A stretch of 64,000 nt of DNA. It comes from Chitinophaga filiformis. Its GTDB lineage: Bacteria > Bacteroidota > Bacteroidia > Chitinophagales > Chitinophagaceae. Position numbers and translations under genes: made by a program. A model generated the notes under the pieces. That model did not search any database. It saw nothing but the letters and a program-made list of their open reading frames with translations, and was not told where the DNA came from. Positions 7,892 through 64,000 of this stretch are shown here, piece after piece (within the stretch, counting starts at the first letter, position 1; the number at the start of each line of letters is the position of its first letter). The stretch covers positions 1,612,001-1,676,000 of the forward strand of contig NZ_CP095855.1 in NCBI RefSeq assembly GCF_023100805.1. The letters run 5' to 3'.

Positions 7892-9298
7892 TTATCCATG
7901 AATGGGGAGCGACACGATAAACCGGGTTTCTCCCGGTTTAGATTCTACACTCAGATAGCCTTTATGCTGGCGGACGATCTGTGATACTATATCCAGTCCA
8001 AGGCCTGTGCCTTTACCCGGGTCTTTTGTCGTAAAGAAGGGATCATATATTTTAGCGATGATACTTTCCGGTATACCGGGGCCATCGTCAGTGATGATAA
8101 CTTTCAGACAATCTTTGTCCCGTTCCGTTTTGATGGTGAGTTTTCCCTTTTTATTCACCTCCATCGCATCCAGCGCGTTATCGATCAGGTTGGTCCATAC
8201 CTGGTTCAGTTCTCCGATCAGTGCACGAAGGGGAGGCAGGCTGGTATCATATTGCTCTACCAGTTCAATGTTCCCTTTGCGTAATTTATACTGCAGGATG
8301 GAAAGCGTATTACGGATGCCATCATGGATATTGGTAAGTTGTTTATCATAGCCCTTATCCATATGGGTGAATGATTTTACGGAGCCTACCAGGTCTGCAA
8401 TGCGTTTGGATGCTTCTTCAATATCGGATACTATTTTTTCTGTAACCAGGTTATTATTGATCCAGTTGAACACAGGTGAAATATCATTGGCTCCCAGGCG
8501 GTGTCTGAACTCGTCGAGCTTTTCCTTGGTAAATCCAAACTCCACGAAGTTCTCTGCCAGTTCCACGCTATTCTCCACATTGAGCTCGTCGAGCCATTCG
8601 GTCAATTCATCTTCCTTCTGGGAACGTTGTACAAGCGTGAGACTGGATCCCTGTGATTTGTGCTGTGAGAGCACCTCAAACATCTTCTCCTTGACAAGAT
8701 CGATCGCTGCTGCGTCCATACGGATCTCCATGATCCGTTTGAAGAACTCCGGCTGTAATTGCAGGTGTTTTTTCATGGAATAGGCGCCCCTTACAACGGC
8801 TGCTGCCGGATTATTCAGTTCATGTGCCAGCCCTGCAGACAATTTACCCAGCGCCATCATCTTTTCACTTTGGCGCAGGAAAGAGGTGTAGTCCCTCACC
8901 CGGTTAGTCATAATATGCACAAGGGCCTGCGTCAGCTCAAAATGATTGCGGATCAGTTCCTGTATTTTCTCAATAGGAAGATTGAGGACTACCGTATCTT
9001 CAATCACTTCTCCTGTTACCTGGTATACTGTTCCCCTGGAAAAAGGAAGATAGCCTACTATTTTGCCAGGTTCTACTATAAGGAGTTCGCGCAGCTCATT
9101 GTTCTGCATCTGGCATATTCTCACCAAACCGGATACAATAAGCTGGGTGCCGAGCATCATGTCATCGACTTTGAACATATAAGTACCGGCGGCATATTCT
9201 TGCCGTTCACTATTATCTATGAACCATTGTAACTGGTTGTCGGGAACGCCCTGAAGTGTCTCAATGGAGCGCATCCATTCAACGGTGATATTAGTCAT
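7892..9298 (-). CDS. Sensor histidine kinase with N-terminal cyclic nucleotide-binding-like domain
   Basis: A 468-residue soluble kinase. Residues 10-130 form a Crp-type effector domain, followed by a HisKA domain with phosphorylated His159 in GLAHELNNPAA, a long helical insert (about 175-300), and a HATPase_c domain (DNALDAM, DDGPGIP, GKGTGLGLDIV). There is no transmembrane segment, so it senses a cytosolic signal. It lies 54 bp upstream of the receiver/flavoprotein fusion in the same direction, and the two very likely form one two-component system. Crp-domain kinases paired with TrxR-like response regulators are a known Bacteroidota arrangement. The start is ATG 9298. Confidence 0.88.
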   Translation of the reverse strand: MTNITVEWMRSIETLQGVPDNQLQWFIDNSERQEYAAGTYMFKVDDMMLGTQLIVSGLVRICQMQNNELRELLIVEPGKIVGYLPFSRGTVYQVTGEVIEDTVVLNLPIEKIQELIRNHFELTQALVHIMTNRVRDYTSFLRQSEKMMALGKLSAGLAHELNNPAAAVVRGAYSMKKHLQLQPEFFKRIMEIRMDAAAIDLVKEKMFEVLSQHKSQGSSLTLVQRSQKEDELTEWLDELNVENSVELAENFVEFGFTKEKLDEFRHRLGANDISPVFNWINNNLVTEKIVSDIEEASKRIADLVGSVKSFTHMDKGYDKQLTNIHDGIRNTLSILQYKLRKGNIELVEQYDTSLPPLRALIGELNQVWTNLIDNALDAMEVNKKGKLTIKTERDKDCLKVIITDDGPGIPESIIAKIYDPFFTTKDPGKGTGLGLDIVSQIVRQHKGYLSVESKPGETRFIVSLPIHG

Positions 9299-9551
9299 GG
9301 AAGGATGATTATTGACCAGAAAGATACTTATAATTCAGCTAGGTTCCCAACTGTGATAGTTGTCGGATTTCTGTTGAAATAGGTCTAAATCATCAGATGG
9401 AGCGTCTTACAAACATGGTTCCTAAAACAGATCGCCCTGAGGGGGCTGGTAATAACATCCAATACGTATTACAAATAATACCTGATCACTATAAATGCTG
9501 TTCCCTGCAACCGGCGGCTGACTGAAATCAACCAGATGGGTGAAAGCATAA

Positions 9552-9586
9552 GGTTTTGCAAGTGGGAACTACCCACCTGCAAAACC
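9552..9586 (-). terminator. 15-bp hairpin downstream of the hydrolase gene
   Basis: The arms 9552-9566 and 9572-9586 pair along 15 bp around a 5-nt loop. The one non-Watson-Crick pair is G-U in the minus transcript but A-C in the plus transcript, which favours the minus strand, ending the gene at 9597. No long U tract follows. The rest of 9299-9596 shows nothing else I can support. Confidence 0.6.
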
Positions 9587-9596
9587 GCTATGAATA

Positions 9597-10601
9597 TTAC
9601 TTCAACGCATTCCTCAGCTCATTCGCTGCATGCCTCAATGCAGACTGCACTGCCGGTACATTTGCGATTGGGTTCAGCAAACCATAGTCATGTATCATGC
9701 CCTGCACACGAACAAGTGTAACCGGTACCCCTGCCTCATCCATTTTCCTTGCATACGCTTCGCCTTCATCCCGCAACACGTCATTCTCTGCTGTTTGCAC
9801 CAGGGTAGGAGGTAAGCCTTTCAGTTCTTCTACGCTCGCCTGTAAAGGAGACGCGTAGATCTCATTACGCTGCGGCCCCTCCGGCATATAATTATCCCAG
9901 AACCAGATCATCATATTCCTTGTCAGGAAACGGGAAGTCGCATACTGGTGATAGGAAACCGTATCGAAACTGGCGTCCGTCACCGGCCAGAAAAGCACCT
10001 GGAATTGGATCTCCGGACCTTTCTTGTTTTTTGCCATCAATACGGTAGCGGCAGTCAGATTACCACCAACGCTGTTGCCTACCACCGCCAGGCGTTTCCC
10101 GTCTATATTCAGCTCTGCGCCATTAGCTGCGATCCATTTGGTGGCAGCATATGCTTCATTGAGCGCTACCGGGTATTTGGCTTCGGGAGAGCGTGTATAT
10201 TCCACAAATACGGCAACAAGCCCTGAATAGACCACCAGGTCCCTGACAAAGCGCTGATGCGTTGGGAAATCTCCCAATACCCAGCCGCCACCATGAATGA
10301 ACATGAAAGCAGGTAGCACGCCGGTCTGTCCTTCGGGACGTACAATGAACAGTTTCACACTAAGCCCATCTTCAGTGATCGTTTTTTCAGTTACTGTTAC
10401 TCCGGAAAGATCTACTTCCACAGATTTTTGCGCTCCTTCCAGTACTTTACGGGCATCGCCAGGCGTCATGGTCTCCATAGGATCACCGCCGGCACTGTTC
10501 AACACATTCAGAAAGGCTTTGATGTGCGTGTCAATAGCCGGGTCAATAGCAGGATCCAGCACTGCAATGGTATCGCCAACAGCAATTAATTGTTCATTCA
10601 T
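9597..10601 (-). CDS. Alpha/beta hydrolase, hormone-sensitive lipase type
   Basis: The 334-residue cytosolic esterase has the HSL-family oxyanion motif HGGGW, the nucleophile elbow GNSVGG, an acidic residue in ENDVLRDEGEAYARK and the catalytic His in GMIHDYG. Family members hydrolyse short-chain acyl esters and aryl esters; the natural substrate cannot be read from sequence. It is transcribed divergently from the radical SAM operon and is followed by a hairpin terminator. No signal peptide is visible. The start is ATG 10601. Confidence 0.9.
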   Translation of the reverse strand: MNEQLIAVGDTIAVLDPAIDPAIDTHIKAFLNVLNSAGGDPMETMTPGDARKVLEGAQKSVEVDLSGVTVTEKTITEDGLSVKLFIVRPEGQTGVLPAFMFIHGGGWVLGDFPTHQRFVRDLVVYSGLVAVFVEYTRSPEAKYPVALNEAYAATKWIAANGAELNIDGKRLAVVGNSVGGNLTAATVLMAKNKKGPEIQFQVLFWPVTDASFDTVSYHQYATSRFLTRNMMIWFWDNYMPEGPQRNEIYASPLQASVEELKGLPPTLVQTAENDVLRDEGEAYARKMDEAGVPVTLVRVQGMIHDYGLLNPIANVPAVQSALRHAANELRNALK

Positions 10602-10888
10602 ATTGTTATCTTTTTATGGATGTTAATAATATGGGTTACCACAAATCTATTATATAGGTATGCCGGCATCAATGGCGGAATGACGGCGTCTGTTGTATAA
10701 TTACGGGAAAAGAAACGGATGAGCAGGCTATGCTGAGGCCCTGCTGAATTTAACTGACATTCCAGATCCAGGAACATTTCACTTGTTCCCTCAGGGGATA
10801 ACTTTTTTTTCTCACGCATAAGGGTATACATTATACATGGTGTTGTTATAGTAAAGACTGCCTGTTAATTACAATTAATGACTGACCT

Positions 10889-58194: not shown

Positions 58195-60531
58195 ATGAAA
58201 GTTTTATCAGCTAACTCCGAAGTGTTCAAGGAAGAGGAAGTAATGATAGACAGCCATATCTCATTTGGACCTTACGTTAAGTTTCTGAAAGAAAAGGCTG
58301 CTAAAACCTCGGATGCGCGTGCTGCTTACTATCAGAAGATAGTTAAACAGTTTGAAGGTAACCCTGCTCTACTAGGCCCCATAGCCGGTGCCGACGACCT
58401 GTCTGCTTACCAGGAATATCTCGATCTGATCATTGCAACCATTTTCCCTGTCACTGTCGACATGGAAAAAGATATATATGGCATAGGCGTTCCACACAAG
58501 TTTGCCATCTTTTACTACTCTGACCTGTTCAAGAAGCTCTTTGCCGCCAATGGCGATAAGCTGGTGGCAGTACCGGAAGGAATCTCCGTCGAGAAGGTAA
58601 AAAGAGACAAACTGGAATGGTTATACAAGCTCTTACTTGAAAAAGTATATGGGTTCCCGATGGATTATCAGAATGAGATCATCCATCATGTGACCCTGCC
58701 CGACAGTAACGGGCTGAAGAAGTATGTTAAATTACATATTGATGCACGTTTCGTAGATGTAAAAGTAAAAGGAGAAATTCCCAACCTGAAGTATGATAAC
58801 ATCTGCCGGCAGCATTTCTCTCTTGAAACTTTACAGGAACTGCTGCCACTGAGCAATTTCGCACTGGAAGGTTTTGTGATCTGGACCATACAGGATGTTA
58901 CAAAAGATGAAGTGCAGAACACCATGAAGAACCTGATCCTTAACATGCACGACGGTAATGAGCAACAGACCTACCGCCGCATGGAAGAGGAACTGGAATC
59001 TTTGATACAGCAGGAGGACGTGAGCGTGCATATCGTTCCCATTCCCAAGATTAATGGCCGGTATGTACTGGAATGTGAGCTCTGTGAAAGTGGCGTCATG
59101 TTGGGTGTGATCAATAATGGCAAACAACAGCAGCAACTGTTTCAGCAATTGCTGGAACACCTGGAGCGTAGTAAAGATCCTTTACTGATCCCGGATGTGA
59201 CAGATGCTACCCTGTTGTCTTACCCTTTCCTGCGCTACCTGCCGCTGAAAGGTATCAGGAGCTACCTGATGGCGCCTGTATGGTATGAAGGTCAGTTACT
59301 GGGGATTGTTGAAATAGCGTCTTCCCAGCCTAATAAGGTCACCGCGGAAACGATCGGCAAAGCATATCCTGGTCATCCGCAGATCATGATGCTGCTGACA
59401 AGAGGCGCCGATATCGTGAATAACCGCATCGTCCAGGTGATAAAGGAGCAGTTCACTGCCCTTCAGCCTTCGGTAGAATGGAAATTTACGGATGCCGCCT
59501 GGCATTACCTGCATACACCGAAAGAAGATCGCAAGGACATCGGCAACATCTCTTTCGAAGATGTCTATCCTTTATACGGTGCTGTTGATATCAGGAACTC
59601 ATCTACAGAACGCAGCAATGCGATCCATGAAGACCTGCGCGAACAGTTGCTGCTGATCAGGGAAACGCTTGATTATATCGGTAATACGATCTACCTGCCA
59701 TTGCTGGAAGAACTGAAGTTCAAGAATGATGAGCTGATCACTGGTATCACCAGCGGCATGTTGTCTGAAGACGAGCTGAAGACGAACAATTACCTGGATG
59801 AAGAGATCGGGCCATTGTTCCATCACCTGCATGACAGTCACCCTGAATTGCAGCCGGTACTGGAACGGTATTTCTCCCTGGTAGATACTTCAGAAGGCCA
59901 TATCCTGCATCACCGCCAGGAGTATGAAGAGAGCCTGGCAAAGATCAACGCGAAGATCAATAAGTACCTCGATAAAGAGAAGGAGAATATTCAGCATTCC
60001 TTCCCCTGCTATTTTGAGAAGTACCGTACCGATGGCGTAGAGTACAATATTTACATCGGACAGGCTATTGCCCAGAACCGTAAGTTCGACCTGTTGTACC
60101 TGCGTAACCTTCGCCTATGGCAGCTTTCTTCCATGGCAGAGATCGCGAAAATGACGAATAAGCTGAAAGATACGCTGAAAGTACCTTTACAGACCACACA
60201 GCTGATACTGGTACACAGCAATCCGATAGATATCAGCTTCCGCCAGGATGAACGCCGCTTTGACGTGGAAGGTGCTTATAATATCCGTTATGAGATCATG
60301 AAGAAACGGATAGATAAAGTGCATATCCGTCAGACGGGTAAGCGCCTGACACAGCCGGGTACTATCTCTATCGTATACGCCTATGCGAAGGAAATGGAAG
60401 AATACCTGAAGTATATCACTTTCCTGCAGAATAAGGGTGTATTGGCGGCTGAAGTGGAAATGCTCGATCTGGAAGACCTGCAGGGAGTAAGCGGTCTGAG
60501 GGCATTACGTGTGAAGGTGAATATGGACTAA
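58195..60531 (+). CDS. Large GAF-domain protein of unknown function
   Basis: The 778-residue protein is soluble and has no signal peptide. A GAF-like domain is visible at about residues 280-415 (PLKGIRSYLMAPVWYEGQLLGIVEIASS). The rest, about 1-270 and 415-778, has long helical and mixed stretches without kinase H-box, HATPase, GGDEF or DNA-binding motifs. The C-terminal part has YNIYIGQAIAQNRKFDLLYLRNLRLWQL and a basic helix (RRFDVEGAYNIRYEIMKKRI). It may be a sensory scaffold in Bacteroidota, where such proteins are annotated only as GAF-containing. It is a single gene between terminators. Confidence 0.75.
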   Translation: MKVLSANSEVFKEEEVMIDSHISFGPYVKFLKEKAAKTSDARAAYYQKIVKQFEGNPALLGPIAGADDLSAYQEYLDLIIATIFPVTVDMEKDIYGIGVPHKFAIFYYSDLFKKLFAANGDKLVAVPEGISVEKVKRDKLEWLYKLLLEKVYGFPMDYQNEIIHHVTLPDSNGLKKYVKLHIDARFVDVKVKGEIPNLKYDNICRQHFSLETLQELLPLSNFALEGFVIWTIQDVTKDEVQNTMKNLILNMHDGNEQQTYRRMEEELESLIQQEDVSVHIVPIPKINGRYVLECELCESGVMLGVINNGKQQQQLFQQLLEHLERSKDPLLIPDVTDATLLSYPFLRYLPLKGIRSYLMAPVWYEGQLLGIVEIASSQPNKVTAETIGKAYPGHPQIMMLLTRGADIVNNRIVQVIKEQFTALQPSVEWKFTDAAWHYLHTPKEDRKDIGNISFEDVYPLYGAVDIRNSSTERSNAIHEDLREQLLLIRETLDYIGNTIYLPLLEELKFKNDELITGITSGMLSEDELKTNNYLDEEIGPLFHHLHDSHPELQPVLERYFSLVDTSEGHILHHRQEYEESLAKINAKINKYLDKEKENIQHSFPCYFEKYRTDGVEYNIYIGQAIAQNRKFDLLYLRNLRLWQLSSMAEIAKMTNKLKDTLKVPLQTTQLILVHSNPIDISFRQDERRFDVEGAYNIRYEIMKKRIDKVHIRQTGKRLTQPGTISIVYAYAKEMEEYLKYITFLQNKGVLAAEVEMLDLEDLQGVSGLRALRVKVNMD

Positions 60532-60606: not shown

Positions 60607-63600
60607 TCAGAACCTGAACCCGAAAGTGATATATGGTAGCACGCCTTCGTCAGAACGGCCTACTACTGCTGAAAGCACGACGAGATTAGCAGGGGTGAAA
60701 TATACGCCGCCGCCATAACCATCATGCCATATGGCTGATTTCTGGCTGGGGAACCATACGCGCCCTACATCGTTGAAGGCAAGCAGGCCCACACTGGCAG
60801 GGAAGAGGTAAGAACGGAAATCAAACAGTTTAATACGCAGCTCAACATTGTTGTATACCGCTGCATTGCCTGTAAAACGATAATTACGATAACCCCTGAG
60901 GTTCTGAACACCACCGATGGCCGCTGCCTGAAAGTATTCGTAATCGCCCCAGATCTTATTCGCACCGAAACGGGTTACCAGCACAACACTGGTAGGCACA
61001 TGGAAGTTTGTATAAATGCTCAGGTCTGTTTGCGCCTGCAGATAATTACGTTTGTCTTCATTTAATCCCTGGCTACCATACAGAGAAGTATTCCAGCTGA
61101 TACCTCTTGTTGGTATCAGGGCATTGTTACGGGTATCTATTTTTAATCCCAGGCGCAGACCGGCATAAGACTTTGACCGGTAAACGGACATGGAATCCAG
61201 GCCATTGTGAGGAAAATCCGAAATAATACGTCCTGCTGTTTCGTCTTTGTCAAGGCTGTAGTAAGTGAGTGATGGTCCATAATACAGTTCTACATTCCTT
61301 GATAATTTGGTATTCAGTAAAGGCTCGATGTTGAACAGTGCGAAACGTGTACGATAGTAGCGGATGGTCTTTGACTTATCAAACACTGATTCGTTGCCAA
61401 AGCCGAAAAAGTTGATCGTGTTATTAGGTGCTTTCGCGCTGGCTGTAATGGTGAGGTCAGTATTGCCGATCACATCGGTGAACTCGCCCAGGTAACGGAA
61501 CTGCCATGCATCGGTACCCAGCGAGTGGCCTGCCAGCACGGTATGCCGTGTAGCGAACGGGCGTTTGCGGAAGCCTTGTGTGGTATACTGGAAGCCGGCG
61601 CCCAGTGACAGACCATCATCCGCGTTAAATGCGGCAGATGCCAGCGGCATCAGCTTGTTGTAGTTCAGGCGGAAGAAGGTACGTTCATACCTGATGATGT
61701 CAGGATTGGAAGAAAGGATCCTCCTGTCGTTGCCGTTCATGGCGAAGCTGTCTTTCCTGTTGGCCAGTTCATAGATGCGGATACGCTTGCCGGCATGGCT
61801 GCCGGTACTATCGATGTAAGTATCTATATCCTTACCACCGATGATGCGCACCTTGATAGGCGAGCCGTTATCTCCCTTCACCACATATTTGTCTTCTCCG
61901 CCGAGGCCGAACAGCCTTACTTCACGGGTATCTTTAGGGTCGAATGTACGGTGATAGATCACCTGTTCCAGTTCGCCTTTTTTGTTGATCTTGTTAACTG
62001 TTACGTCCATCAATCCGCCTGGCAGACGTTCAATGGTGAACAACTCATCCTTTTTACTACCGGTCACTTCCACGTGTTTGGACAGGAATCGGTATAATAC
62101 AAGCGCTTCTTTTTCCAGTATATCGCGGCGTGCTCTCAGTGTATTGTAAGTACGCTCTGCCACTTCAGCTTTGATCGTATCCGGGAAGCGGTTTACCGCA
62201 GCCCTGATAGTGGAATCGGTAATACGCTGTACGAAGGCCTTGCTAATATCTTTCCATTGCTGCTCACTCAGTTCGTTCATAAAGGAGCGGTCAAATGGTT
62301 GTGCAGTAGGGTTTTGTCCTTCTACATACCTGATCTTTGGCCGGAAGCCCTGTATATTCGGCAGTGCCCAGCGCCTGGAGGCAATACGGGGAAGCAGGCC
62401 TTCATTTACGAAGAATGCCTGGTCACGGTCGCGGGGGATAGGAAAATATCTTTGCGTCTTCGCTTTTTTTCCATTCTCTCCCGCCCATCTCCATTGGTCA
62501 TCGTGGCGGTCCCAGTCTGCTATCAGCAGGTCCAGCAGGCGTGCATTCAATACGGCGGGCTGATTGATGGTATTATCATTATCCCCCTGCAGCTGTTCCA
62601 GTACCTTGGGTGTATTGAGTGTCTTTCCTTTTACATCCGGTTCTCTTTCTTCAAACAGGTATACATCGTCTCCAAAGGTATTTTCATAAATACCCAGCAC
62701 CGTATCTTTAGGTAAGTATACGAAGGTCGGGTTGGTATGATGTACACCCGCAGCATCTGCCAGTGGCACTACGGCCAGGGGGGCGTATGGATTGGCGGCA
62801 GAGATCTGGTCCTGCACAACATCTTTGGCAACCGTTTCCCGTAAGGCTTCCGGTACTGCTTTGGCCGGGTATTTCTTCAGGGAACGGAGCACCCATTCCT
62901 TGCCATCTTTATCTTCCAGGCGCAGGGAGAGTGTCTGCATGCCTCCTCCGCGTTTCAGGATCTTCAGGCCACCCTTTTCCTTGTTCAGGTCTAAAACCGG
63001 GAAACTGAGCGGGGTGCCCCATACATCACGATAATTCCTTCCCATCAGCCAGTAGTGGAAACCTGTCTTACCGGTATACTGTGAATCTGCCGGCATAACA
63101 ACCGTAGCTGGCAGCTGGCTGGCAGATGGGCTGGCGTTGGCGATAGCGCTGGAACGGACATCCTGCAGGCTGAATAGCTGTTGTGCGTATACGGGGGCAT
63201 CTGTTTTCTCTATTGTGTAGTATTTCACTTCCACCCGGCCGCTTTTGGATATTTCCAGTACGGTATAGCCGTTCTCATTACTGGCAAAGAGCGACTTGCT
63301 GCCTTTCTTTACCCTGTTCTCCTTGGCGCCTGAGCCACTTACAACGTAGAAGTTCTGTTCATCTTTGATGAGCTGGAGGGTATGGTCATGACCTGATACG
63401 AAGATGGCCGGGCCATGTGGTTTGATAGCCGCTTCCACTCCCCGGATCATTGACTGATAGATCGGGTTGGGAATATCTTCCGGCGTCCCGAATACACCGC
63501 GGGTGATGGGGTAGATAGACCCGATCAGCGGTAAAGGGATGTACAGCCCTTTTTTGAGATCAGTGAAGGGGAAGATATGCTGTTTGATGGTATAATAACC

Positions 63601-64000
63601 GCCATGTATGCTATAACTTCTGAAGGGATGGTGTGCTGCGAAGATGATCAGTTTATTCCTGTTACGGCTAACGATGTCGTTCAGTTCAGTAAGCACTTCT
63701 TCCTTTGTCTTGGTGTCGCAGGAAGATTCTGACCCTGGTTTCTGGTAAGGGAACAACCACCATTCAGTATCCATAATGATCAAAGTGGTATTGTTATCCA
63801 GGTGTACCTCTTCCGGGCCGGGACAGCCATCTTTAGGCAGGAAATTGACATTGGGCAGTTGCAGGGAGTCCACGTACAGCTGCTGGTTGATCACTGTCTG
63901 CCATCCATCCGGTTTAGAACGTTTCCAGTCATGGTTACCGGGAATGAAGATGGCCTGTGTATTGGTGTTTCTCACCAGGTTTACCTGGTAGTCGAGTATC
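60607..64000 (-). CDS. Metallophosphoesterase / kinase-like / outer-membrane barrel fusion (5' end outside window)
   Basis: The frame is open to the last base, so the N-terminus (and any signal peptide) lies outside. Numbering from the GTG at 63975: residues 1-250 are a calcineurin-like metallophosphoesterase with PGNHDW, AAHHPFRSYS and SGHDHTLQ metal motifs. Residues 335-640 resemble an atypical kinase of the FAM20C/CotH/PI4K/HipA type: a Lys after LRLEDKDGKEWVLRSLKK, ADWDRHDDQW (Asp489) and IPRDRDQAFF (Asp516). Residues about 780-1122 are an Omp85/D15-like outer-membrane barrel (RYERTFFRLNYNKLMP, IGGVQNLRGYRNYRF, final GFRF). The whole is predicted to be at the outer membrane. The kinase-like call is inference; the rest is firm. 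Confidence 0.8.
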   Translation of the reverse strand, partial: ILDYQVNLVRNTNTQAIFIPGNHDWKRSKPDGWQTVINQQLYVDSLQLPNVNFLPKDGCPGPEEVHLDNNTTLIIMDTEWWLFPYQKPGSESSCDTKTKEEVLTELNDIVSRNRNKLIIFAAHHPFRSYSIHGGYYTIKQHIFPFTDLKKGLYIPLPLIGSIYPITRGVFGTPEDIPNPIYQSMIRGVEAAIKPHGPAIFVSGHDHTLQLIKDEQNFYVVSGSGAKENRVKKGSKSLFASNENGYTVLEISKSGRVEVKYYTIEKTDAPVYAQQLFSLQDVRSSAIANASPSASQLPATVVMPADSQYTGKTGFHYWLMGRNYRDVWGTPLSFPVLDLNKEKGGLKILKRGGGMQTLSLRLEDKDGKEWVLRSLKKYPAKAVPEALRETVAKDVVQDQISAANPYAPLAVVPLADAAGVHHTNPTFVYLPKDTVLGIYENTFGDDVYLFEEREPDVKGKTLNTPKVLEQLQGDNDNTINQPAVLNARLLDLLIADWDRHDDQWRWAGENGKKAKTQRYFPIPRDRDQAFFVNEGLLPRIASRRWALPNIQGFRPKIRYVEGQNPTAQPFDRSFMNELSEQQWKDISKAFVQRITDSTIRAAVNRFPDTIKAEVAERTYNTLRARRDILEKEALVLYRFLSKHVEVTGSKKDELFTIERLPGGLMDVTVNKINKKGELEQVIYHRTFDPKDTREVRLFGLGGEDKYVVKGDNGSPIKVRIIGGKDIDTYIDSTGSHAGKRIRIYELANRKDSFAMNGNDRRILSSNPDIIRYERTFFRLNYNKLMPLASAAFNADDGLSLGAGFQYTTQGFRKRPFATRHTVLAGHSLGTDAWQFRYLGEFTDVIGNTDLTITASAKAPNNTINFFGFGNESVFDKSKTIRYYRTRFALFNIEPLLNTKLSRNVELYYGPSLTYYSLDKDETAGRIISDFPHNGLDSMSVYRSKSYAGLRLGLKIDTRNNALIPTRGISWNTSLYGSQGLNEDKRNYLQAQTDLSIYTNFHVPTSVVLVTRFGANKIWGDYEYFQAAAIGGVQNLRGYRNYRFTGNAAVYNNVELRIKLFDFRSYLFPASVGLLAFNDVGRVWFPSQKSAIWHDGYGGGVYFTPANLVVLSAVVGRSDEGVLPYITFGFRF

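Follow-up and report, generated by a model that had tools for sequence, protein, structure and literature searches.

A predicted kinase-fold domain between a phosphatase-like domain and an Omp85 barrel in Bacteroidota, encoded near PycTM genes

A protein that joins a phosphatase-like domain, a predicted kinase fold and an outer-membrane (OM) barrel is encoded at the end of a 64,000-nucleotide stretch of the Chitinophaga filiformis genome (contig NZ_CP095855.1, positions 1,612,001 to 1,676,000; hereafter the window), where part of its gene occupies positions 60607-64000 of the reverse strand. From its domain order, predicted folds, conservation and neighbourhood, we infer that it may be an OM-anchored pair of periplasmic phosphotransfer enzymes tied to a cyclic-nucleotide module, a reading whose chances we judge to be about evenly balanced. 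The presence of all three parts in one chain had been proposed in a preliminary description made from the sequence alone, and has been borne out by Pfam and by an AlphaFold2 model.

The open reading frame (ORF) runs off the end of the window, which holds residues 94-1223 of 1223 and the stop codon; the start codon lies about 280 bp further on, and the first 93 residues fall outside. In the source genome, a single contig of 8.26 Mb, the whole gene (L009:2608-6279) has 1223 codons and a stop, and the N-terminus of the 1223-aa protein, judged by eye, is signal-peptide-like. A metallophosphoesterase (MPE) resembling tartrate-resistant acid phosphatase (TRAP) and purple acid phosphatases occupies residues 33-340 (63259-64000, on the reverse strand like all parts of this protein, with residues before 94 outside the window), as identified by PF00149 and by a profile of 16 relatives, and carries the motifs GNHDW (residues 114-118, 63925-63939) and GHDH (residues 296-299, 63382-63393). 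It is followed by the kinase-fold domain (residues 425-733, 62080-63006), which was placed by the AlphaFold2 model and its PDB matches, by a predicted all-beta domain (residues 735-860, 61699-62076), and by a barrel (residues 875-1223, 60610-61656) whose assignment to Omp85 draws on the 16 strands of the model, the PF01103 profile, matches to TamA and BamA, and a (V/L)RG(F/Y) loop motif, here LRGYR (60886-60900). Over the whole protein, Pfam reports Metallophos at residues 33-232 (31.1 bits, cut-off 21.5) and Omp85 at residues 966-1185 (39.7 bits, cut-off 24) with no family between them, and all NCBIfam matches fall short of their cut-offs, led by Omp85 and BamA models that align to the barrel. 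No POTRA was reported by the Pfam scan, the beta domain not having been fold-searched by itself.

In the AlphaFold2 model (pLDDT 93), the middle region forms a bilobal kinase fold, the best structure matches of which include PI4K-II, CotH, CtkA, HipA and Fam20. Structure prediction was the check that the preliminary description had itself proposed, and at the level of the predicted structure its kinase fold is right; its motif comparisons with PI4K-II and FAM20C were apt, and the motifs that it quoted, GNHDW, GHDH, VLRSLKKYP (residues 463-471), DWDRHDDQW (588-596) and RDRDQAFF (616-623), are all present in the ORF. The region is not a product of chance, since 141 of the 395 genomes sampled from the phylum (Bacteroidota) encode a relative of residues 401-760 at E <= 0.001. 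With PI4K type II, CotH and CtkA it shares both the fold and the order of catalytic-loop and PxDxD-like motifs, PI4K-II having a DRGNDNW catalytic loop and DNGLAF, CtkA a DRHxGNW-like catalytic loop and CotH the motif PYDLD, while it differs from them in having Arg for Lys and Gln for Asn. No significant sequence link to CtkA or CotH was found (CtkA E 0.29; CotH profile probability 11%). For the window's member, Pfam gives no match at E <= 1, and 65 members compared with Pfam gave scattered weak matches (25 of 41 families listed), the best with E 0.0075 in one member. An identity with CotH (PF08757) was rejected, the profile comparison giving a probability of 11% and E 0.0028 for one comparison, without a Pfam match; the same applies to HipA, with a profile probability of 0.2% and no Pfam match for the window's member.

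As judged from aligned relatives, the predicted active site is invariant yet odd. Nine positions (R465, D583, D588, D590, R591, H592, Q595, D617 and D619) are kept in all 132 full-length relatives, and three more are near-invariant (K469 in 131, D490 and E543 in 129 each). The catalytic-loop motif DWDRHDDQWRW (residues 588-598, 62485-62517) contributes D588, D590, R591, H592 and Q595, and the metal-binding motif PRDRDQAF (residues 615-622, 62413-62436) contributes D617 and D619; the catalytic Asp (D590) and the DFG-like Asp (D617), listed as Asp489 and Asp516 in the preliminary description (whose numbers are the full-length ones minus 101), are thus conserved as it had supposed. Conservation also points to a glycine-rich loop, GGGMQ (residues 444-448, 62935-62949). 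The oddity lies in the beta-3 Lys, which on the model and by conservation appears to be replaced by invariant Arg465 (R465-K469, 62872-62886), with K469, four residues on, as a nearby lysine that might take over its role, and in the metal-binding Asn, the position of which holds Gln in 132/132. Of the two lysines originally put forward, Lys368 (K469) has therefore stood, and Lys367 (K468), found in 23 of the 132, has not; nor has the helix acid Glu380 (E481, 18/132), the acid kept in helix alphaC being D490.

Three architectures were found, in which the kinase-fold domain is joined to both MPE and barrel (mostly about 1200-1250 aa), to the barrel (about 850-960 aa), or stands without a barrel (about 420-570 aa). 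All twelve site residues are kept in 30 of 32 kinase-barrel forms and in 12 of 16 short, barrel-less forms, D590 and H592 being lost in three of the 16, and Asn occupies the metal-Asn position in one kinase-barrel and one short form. Some barrel-less genes (about 520-570 aa) adjoin as divergent pairs (L041:3498-6854; L042:2126-7151, with three genes; L043:3433-6778), and some of these have DWSRRE for DWDRHE, so that one member may lack the catalytic Asp. Neighbourhoods were compared in loci L053-L132, the best 80 of 594 confirmed stretches, nearly all from Bacteroidota with one Chlorobiota metagenome-assembled genome. This set is biased to intact motifs because the search pattern demanded DWDRH; relatives found without that requirement agree with it. 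Loci L121 and L123 are identical, leaving 79 distinct loci, 58 of them with a fused MPE, and open-ended ORFs, L123, and L237 and L238 (not full length) were dropped before the other counts. Neighbouring genes were greedy ORF calls, and their clusters were named by BLAST to the source genome's annotated genes or by the Pfam match of one member.

The MPE domain is the less constant of the two enzyme-like domains. A profile of 16 intact MPE domains retrieved, at E <= 0.01, six tartrate-resistant or purple acid phosphatase sequences (best E about 1e-15) and GAP50, and in the window's protein the metal-site motifs GD, GDNxY, GNHD, HH and GHxH are all intact. At least one of nine MPE site residues has been lost in 21 of the 132 full-length relatives, which the kinase-domain tree resolves into 12 changes, no fewer than 10 of them forced by well-supported branches, whereas the nine kinase-fold positions show zero change across the same relatives; the kinase-fold domain is therefore the more constrained part. 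Cysteines C152 and C187 of the MPE are invariant in 16/16 intact domains, as expected of an extracytoplasmic disulphide.

The proposed link to a cyclic-nucleotide module comes from gene neighbourhoods. In the source genome, a gene for an SdiA-regulated-like putative lipoprotein (L009:6290-7150), which also has a phytase-like match below cut-off, lies 10 bp upstream on the same strand, and beyond it, divergently oriented and past the window end, are genes for an HD-PycTM protein (L009:7270-8559) and, two bases later, PPK1 (8562-10649). The SdiA-like gene is found in 24 of the 58 MPE-fused loci, and in 23 of these it is the immediate upstream neighbour in the same orientation, at a distance of -11 to 150 bp and overlapping by 4 bp in nine, so that its product is likely to be a partner of the fused protein; PPK1 is near the gene in 10/80 loci. 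PycTM (PF18967) occurs in 145 of the 395 genomes, 121 of which also encode the kinase-fold domain, with 20 genomes having only the kinase fold and 24 only PycTM (Fisher p 1e-54, relatedness ignored). Distances were counted from 129 typed places and PycTM places above 81.4 bits, and then with 21 added places, which include G218, G276 and G354 (without PycTM) and further gene copies, bringing the count to 122 of the 141 genomes. PycTM lies within 6 kb in 86 and within 20 kb in 98 of these 122, and within 6 kb of 70 and 20 kb of 81 of the 97 MPE-fused places. The linkage is a matter of the MPE-fused form, because PycTM accompanies 40 of 58 distinct MPE-fused loci as against 1 of 19 kinase-barrel loci, and a class III cyclase 23 of 58 as against 0 of 19. 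In PADLOC, one neighbouring cyclase matches the PycC model (E 2e-21) and the HD protein of the source genome the PycTM model (E 2e-16). While these are the components of Pycsar (PycC cyclase and PycTM effector), PycTM is here mostly fused to HD and is encoded beside an OM protein in a chromosomal setting that is conserved, which looks more like housekeeping signalling than a defence island. That PycTM occurs with an HD domain at such a conserved place on the chromosome suggests that matches to its profile in Bacteroidota are often not phage-defence islands.

A second phosphatase gene was found beside some broken MPE domains. In eight distinct loci (L078, L080, L081, L093, L120, L121, L124 and L131), the gene is followed immediately, in the same orientation, by a His_Phos_1 gene (at -4 to 244 bp, with a 4-bp overlap in three). 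This second gene has a signal-like start, judged by eye, in six of the eight, and in all eight the MPE is broken, keeping 1-4 of 9 site residues. A search of 29 genomes, which left out L101, found His_Phos in 15, among them two Pontibacter genomes (L057 and L063, with no MPE in the retrieved locus); it is absent from L127, which has a broken MPE. Among 102 tree rows, His_Phos is present in 12 and absent from 6 with MPE at or below 6/9, and absent from 84 with MPE at or above 7/9; these 84 hold at the strict threshold, as G118, with an intact MPE, becomes positive at the loose one (28% match, E 1.6e-17). On the tree, the pairing of His_Phos with a broken MPE amounts to one or two events. A His-phosphatase as the general replacement of a broken MPE was thus rejected, the raw count being strong and only 1/6 independent pairs agreeing, and the pattern is kept as a suggestive local event, one that hints, without proving it, that the system benefits from a phosphatase.

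We propose that the protein would be anchored in the OM and would hold two domains that act on phosphate in the periplasm, one a TRAP-like phosphatase and the other an atypical kinase fold, both linked through the beta domain to an Omp85 barrel of 16 strands that lacks a recognised POTRA. The presumed core of the protein, the kinase-fold domain, would transfer a phosphoryl (or nucleotidyl) group to an envelope substrate, such as an OM lipid, glycan or lipoprotein, and the phosphatase would strip the transferred group or recycle the product. Both would belong to a system that follows the state of the envelope, whose putative cytoplasmic side is the HD-PycTM protein encoded nearby, joined in many genomes by a PycC-like cyclase. 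The closest working analogy, and no more than that, is the animal secretory route, in which Fam20C and TRAP (ACP5) place an atypical kinase and a phosphatase outside the cytosol; they share osteopontin as a substrate, and the Golgi is supplied with ATP, while they differ from the present protein in being separate and eukaryotic.

Several points weigh against this proposal. On the established view, no ATP is expected in the periplasm, and in an ordinary kinase the change of the beta-3 Lys to Arg and of the metal-site Asn to Gln should severely impair activity. Kinase-barrel forms without MPE are common, and the phosphatase is not always needed, given the 21 of 132 relatives that have lost MPE site residues; of the 18 relatives whose MPE is badly broken, 6 come from genomes without a His_Phos gene (two of these genomes, G226 and G356, retain an intact second copy), and after correction for the tree 1/6 independent pairs fits MPE loss with His_Phos and 5/6 show no difference. 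The statistics of the PycTM linkage ignore relatedness, and of the 10 MPE-fused places among the 21 added ones, mostly second copies, 0 lie within 6 kb of PycTM; second MPE-fused copies are mostly away from it.

The main rival is that the kinase-fold domain is a pseudokinase. As a sensor or scaffold in the periplasm, it would bind some ligand, such as a nucleotide, and regulate the barrel or the phosphatase while transferring no phosphate. We regard this as doubtful but a serious contender: the two unusual residues in 132/132 relatives, the expected lack of periplasmic ATP and the loss of D590 in 3/16 kinase-only paralogues all favour it, whereas catalytic-loop and DFG-like Asp residues kept in 132/132 go beyond what binding needs and above the constancy of the MPE. 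An active enzyme that is not a kinase proper, catalysing for example AMPylation or drawing on polyphosphate or on lipid-linked or extracellular nucleotides in place of ATP, would also suit a site that is odd yet invariant, and kinase folds can carry out AMPylation and glutamylation (PMC10870513, in the part covered here). The PPK1 gene near the source gene and in 10/80 loci also speaks for it. We consider this reading unlikely; the PPK1 linkage is confined to a minority of loci, and polyphosphate as the donor was rejected on that count.

Two further alternatives concern the barrel and the MPE. The preliminary description had placed phosphatase and kinase at the cell surface, and a type-Vd-like autotransporter, in which the barrel exports both domains, would put them there; an N-terminal enzyme ahead of a C-terminal Omp85 barrel was first read in this way for PlpD, and in the 2014 Omp85 survey the idea was weighed for the proteins with PF00149 (PMC4104836, in the part covered). 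Two folded globular domains would need to pass through the barrel, however, and the patatin-Omp85 protein PlpD, according to the portion of PMC11116518 consulted, has its enzyme domain solely in the periplasm, for which reason surface display is unlikely, the periplasm likelier by analogy, and the autotransporter reading very improbable. PlpD resembles the window's protein as an OM-anchored periplasmic enzyme with its catalytic domain ahead of a 16-strand Omp85 barrel, while it differs in being a lipase with POTRA and without a kinase fold (same portion). Equally improbable, in our view, is a phosphate-acquisition enzyme in which incoming compounds lose their phosphate to the MPE, with the barrel as conduit and the kinase-fold domain as binding module; the TRAP-like MPE and the SdiA-like, phytase-like neighbour would fit, but MPE residues are lost in 21/132 while the kinase-fold site is kept, and no known phosphate-uptake gene was seen among the subset of recurrent neighbour clusters that was scanned or compared.

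The fusion of an MPE to an Omp85 barrel, a part of the architecture first called novel, is itself known. Heinz and Lithgow (2014; PMC4104836) described an Omp85 'Metallo' subfamily with PF00149 N-terminal to the barrel in a non-POTRA architecture, read as a metalloprotease; on the portion covered, it very likely comprises the same proteins. Nowhere does its main text use the words 'kinase', 'phosphatase' or 'phosphoesterase', and, unlike here, the part of that account consulted describes no signalling neighbourhood or broken MPE forms. KINtaro (PMC10870513) lists 72 kinase-like families, and 'Omp85' and 'outer membrane' occur 0 times in its main text, the portion covered here. In the open-licence literature, no report was found of a kinase-like domain in Omp85 proteins or of its PycTM linkage.

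A Riemerella metallophosphoesterase, attributed to Niu et al. in 2021, is said to have phosphatase activity. It was not counted as a family member, being listed as a type IX secretion effector in a review table (PMC10202324).

On the other side of the gene, a GAF-domain protein of 778 aa is encoded as a convergent neighbour (58195-60531, forward strand; ORF and Pfam), and relatives of it are near the gene in 20/80 loci. In L064, L069, L117 and L119, the full-length gene with all three parts has a kinase-barrel gene as a near neighbour in the same orientation, separated from it by a single gene, which encodes a GAF-type protein in L064 and L069, is unnamed in L117, and encodes HD-PycTM in L119.

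It is tempting, though on balance improbable, to see here the founding member of a widespread system in which an OM-anchored kinase-fold enzyme would write envelope phosphorylation and a phosphatase on the same chain would erase it. This would take place where ATP is held to be absent, and the system would be coupled to a second-messenger module of PycTM and cyclase that is conserved and not devoted to defence. Periplasmic phosphorylation in bacteria would become directly testable with a kinase fold that has an invariant active site, is mostly fixed to the OM and occurs in 141 of 395 sampled genomes. The findings correct the published metalloprotease label of the subfamily and add a kinase-like family absent from Pfam; the neighbourhoods further suggest that PycTM/PycC-type proteins also serve ordinary chromosomal signalling linked to the outer membrane.

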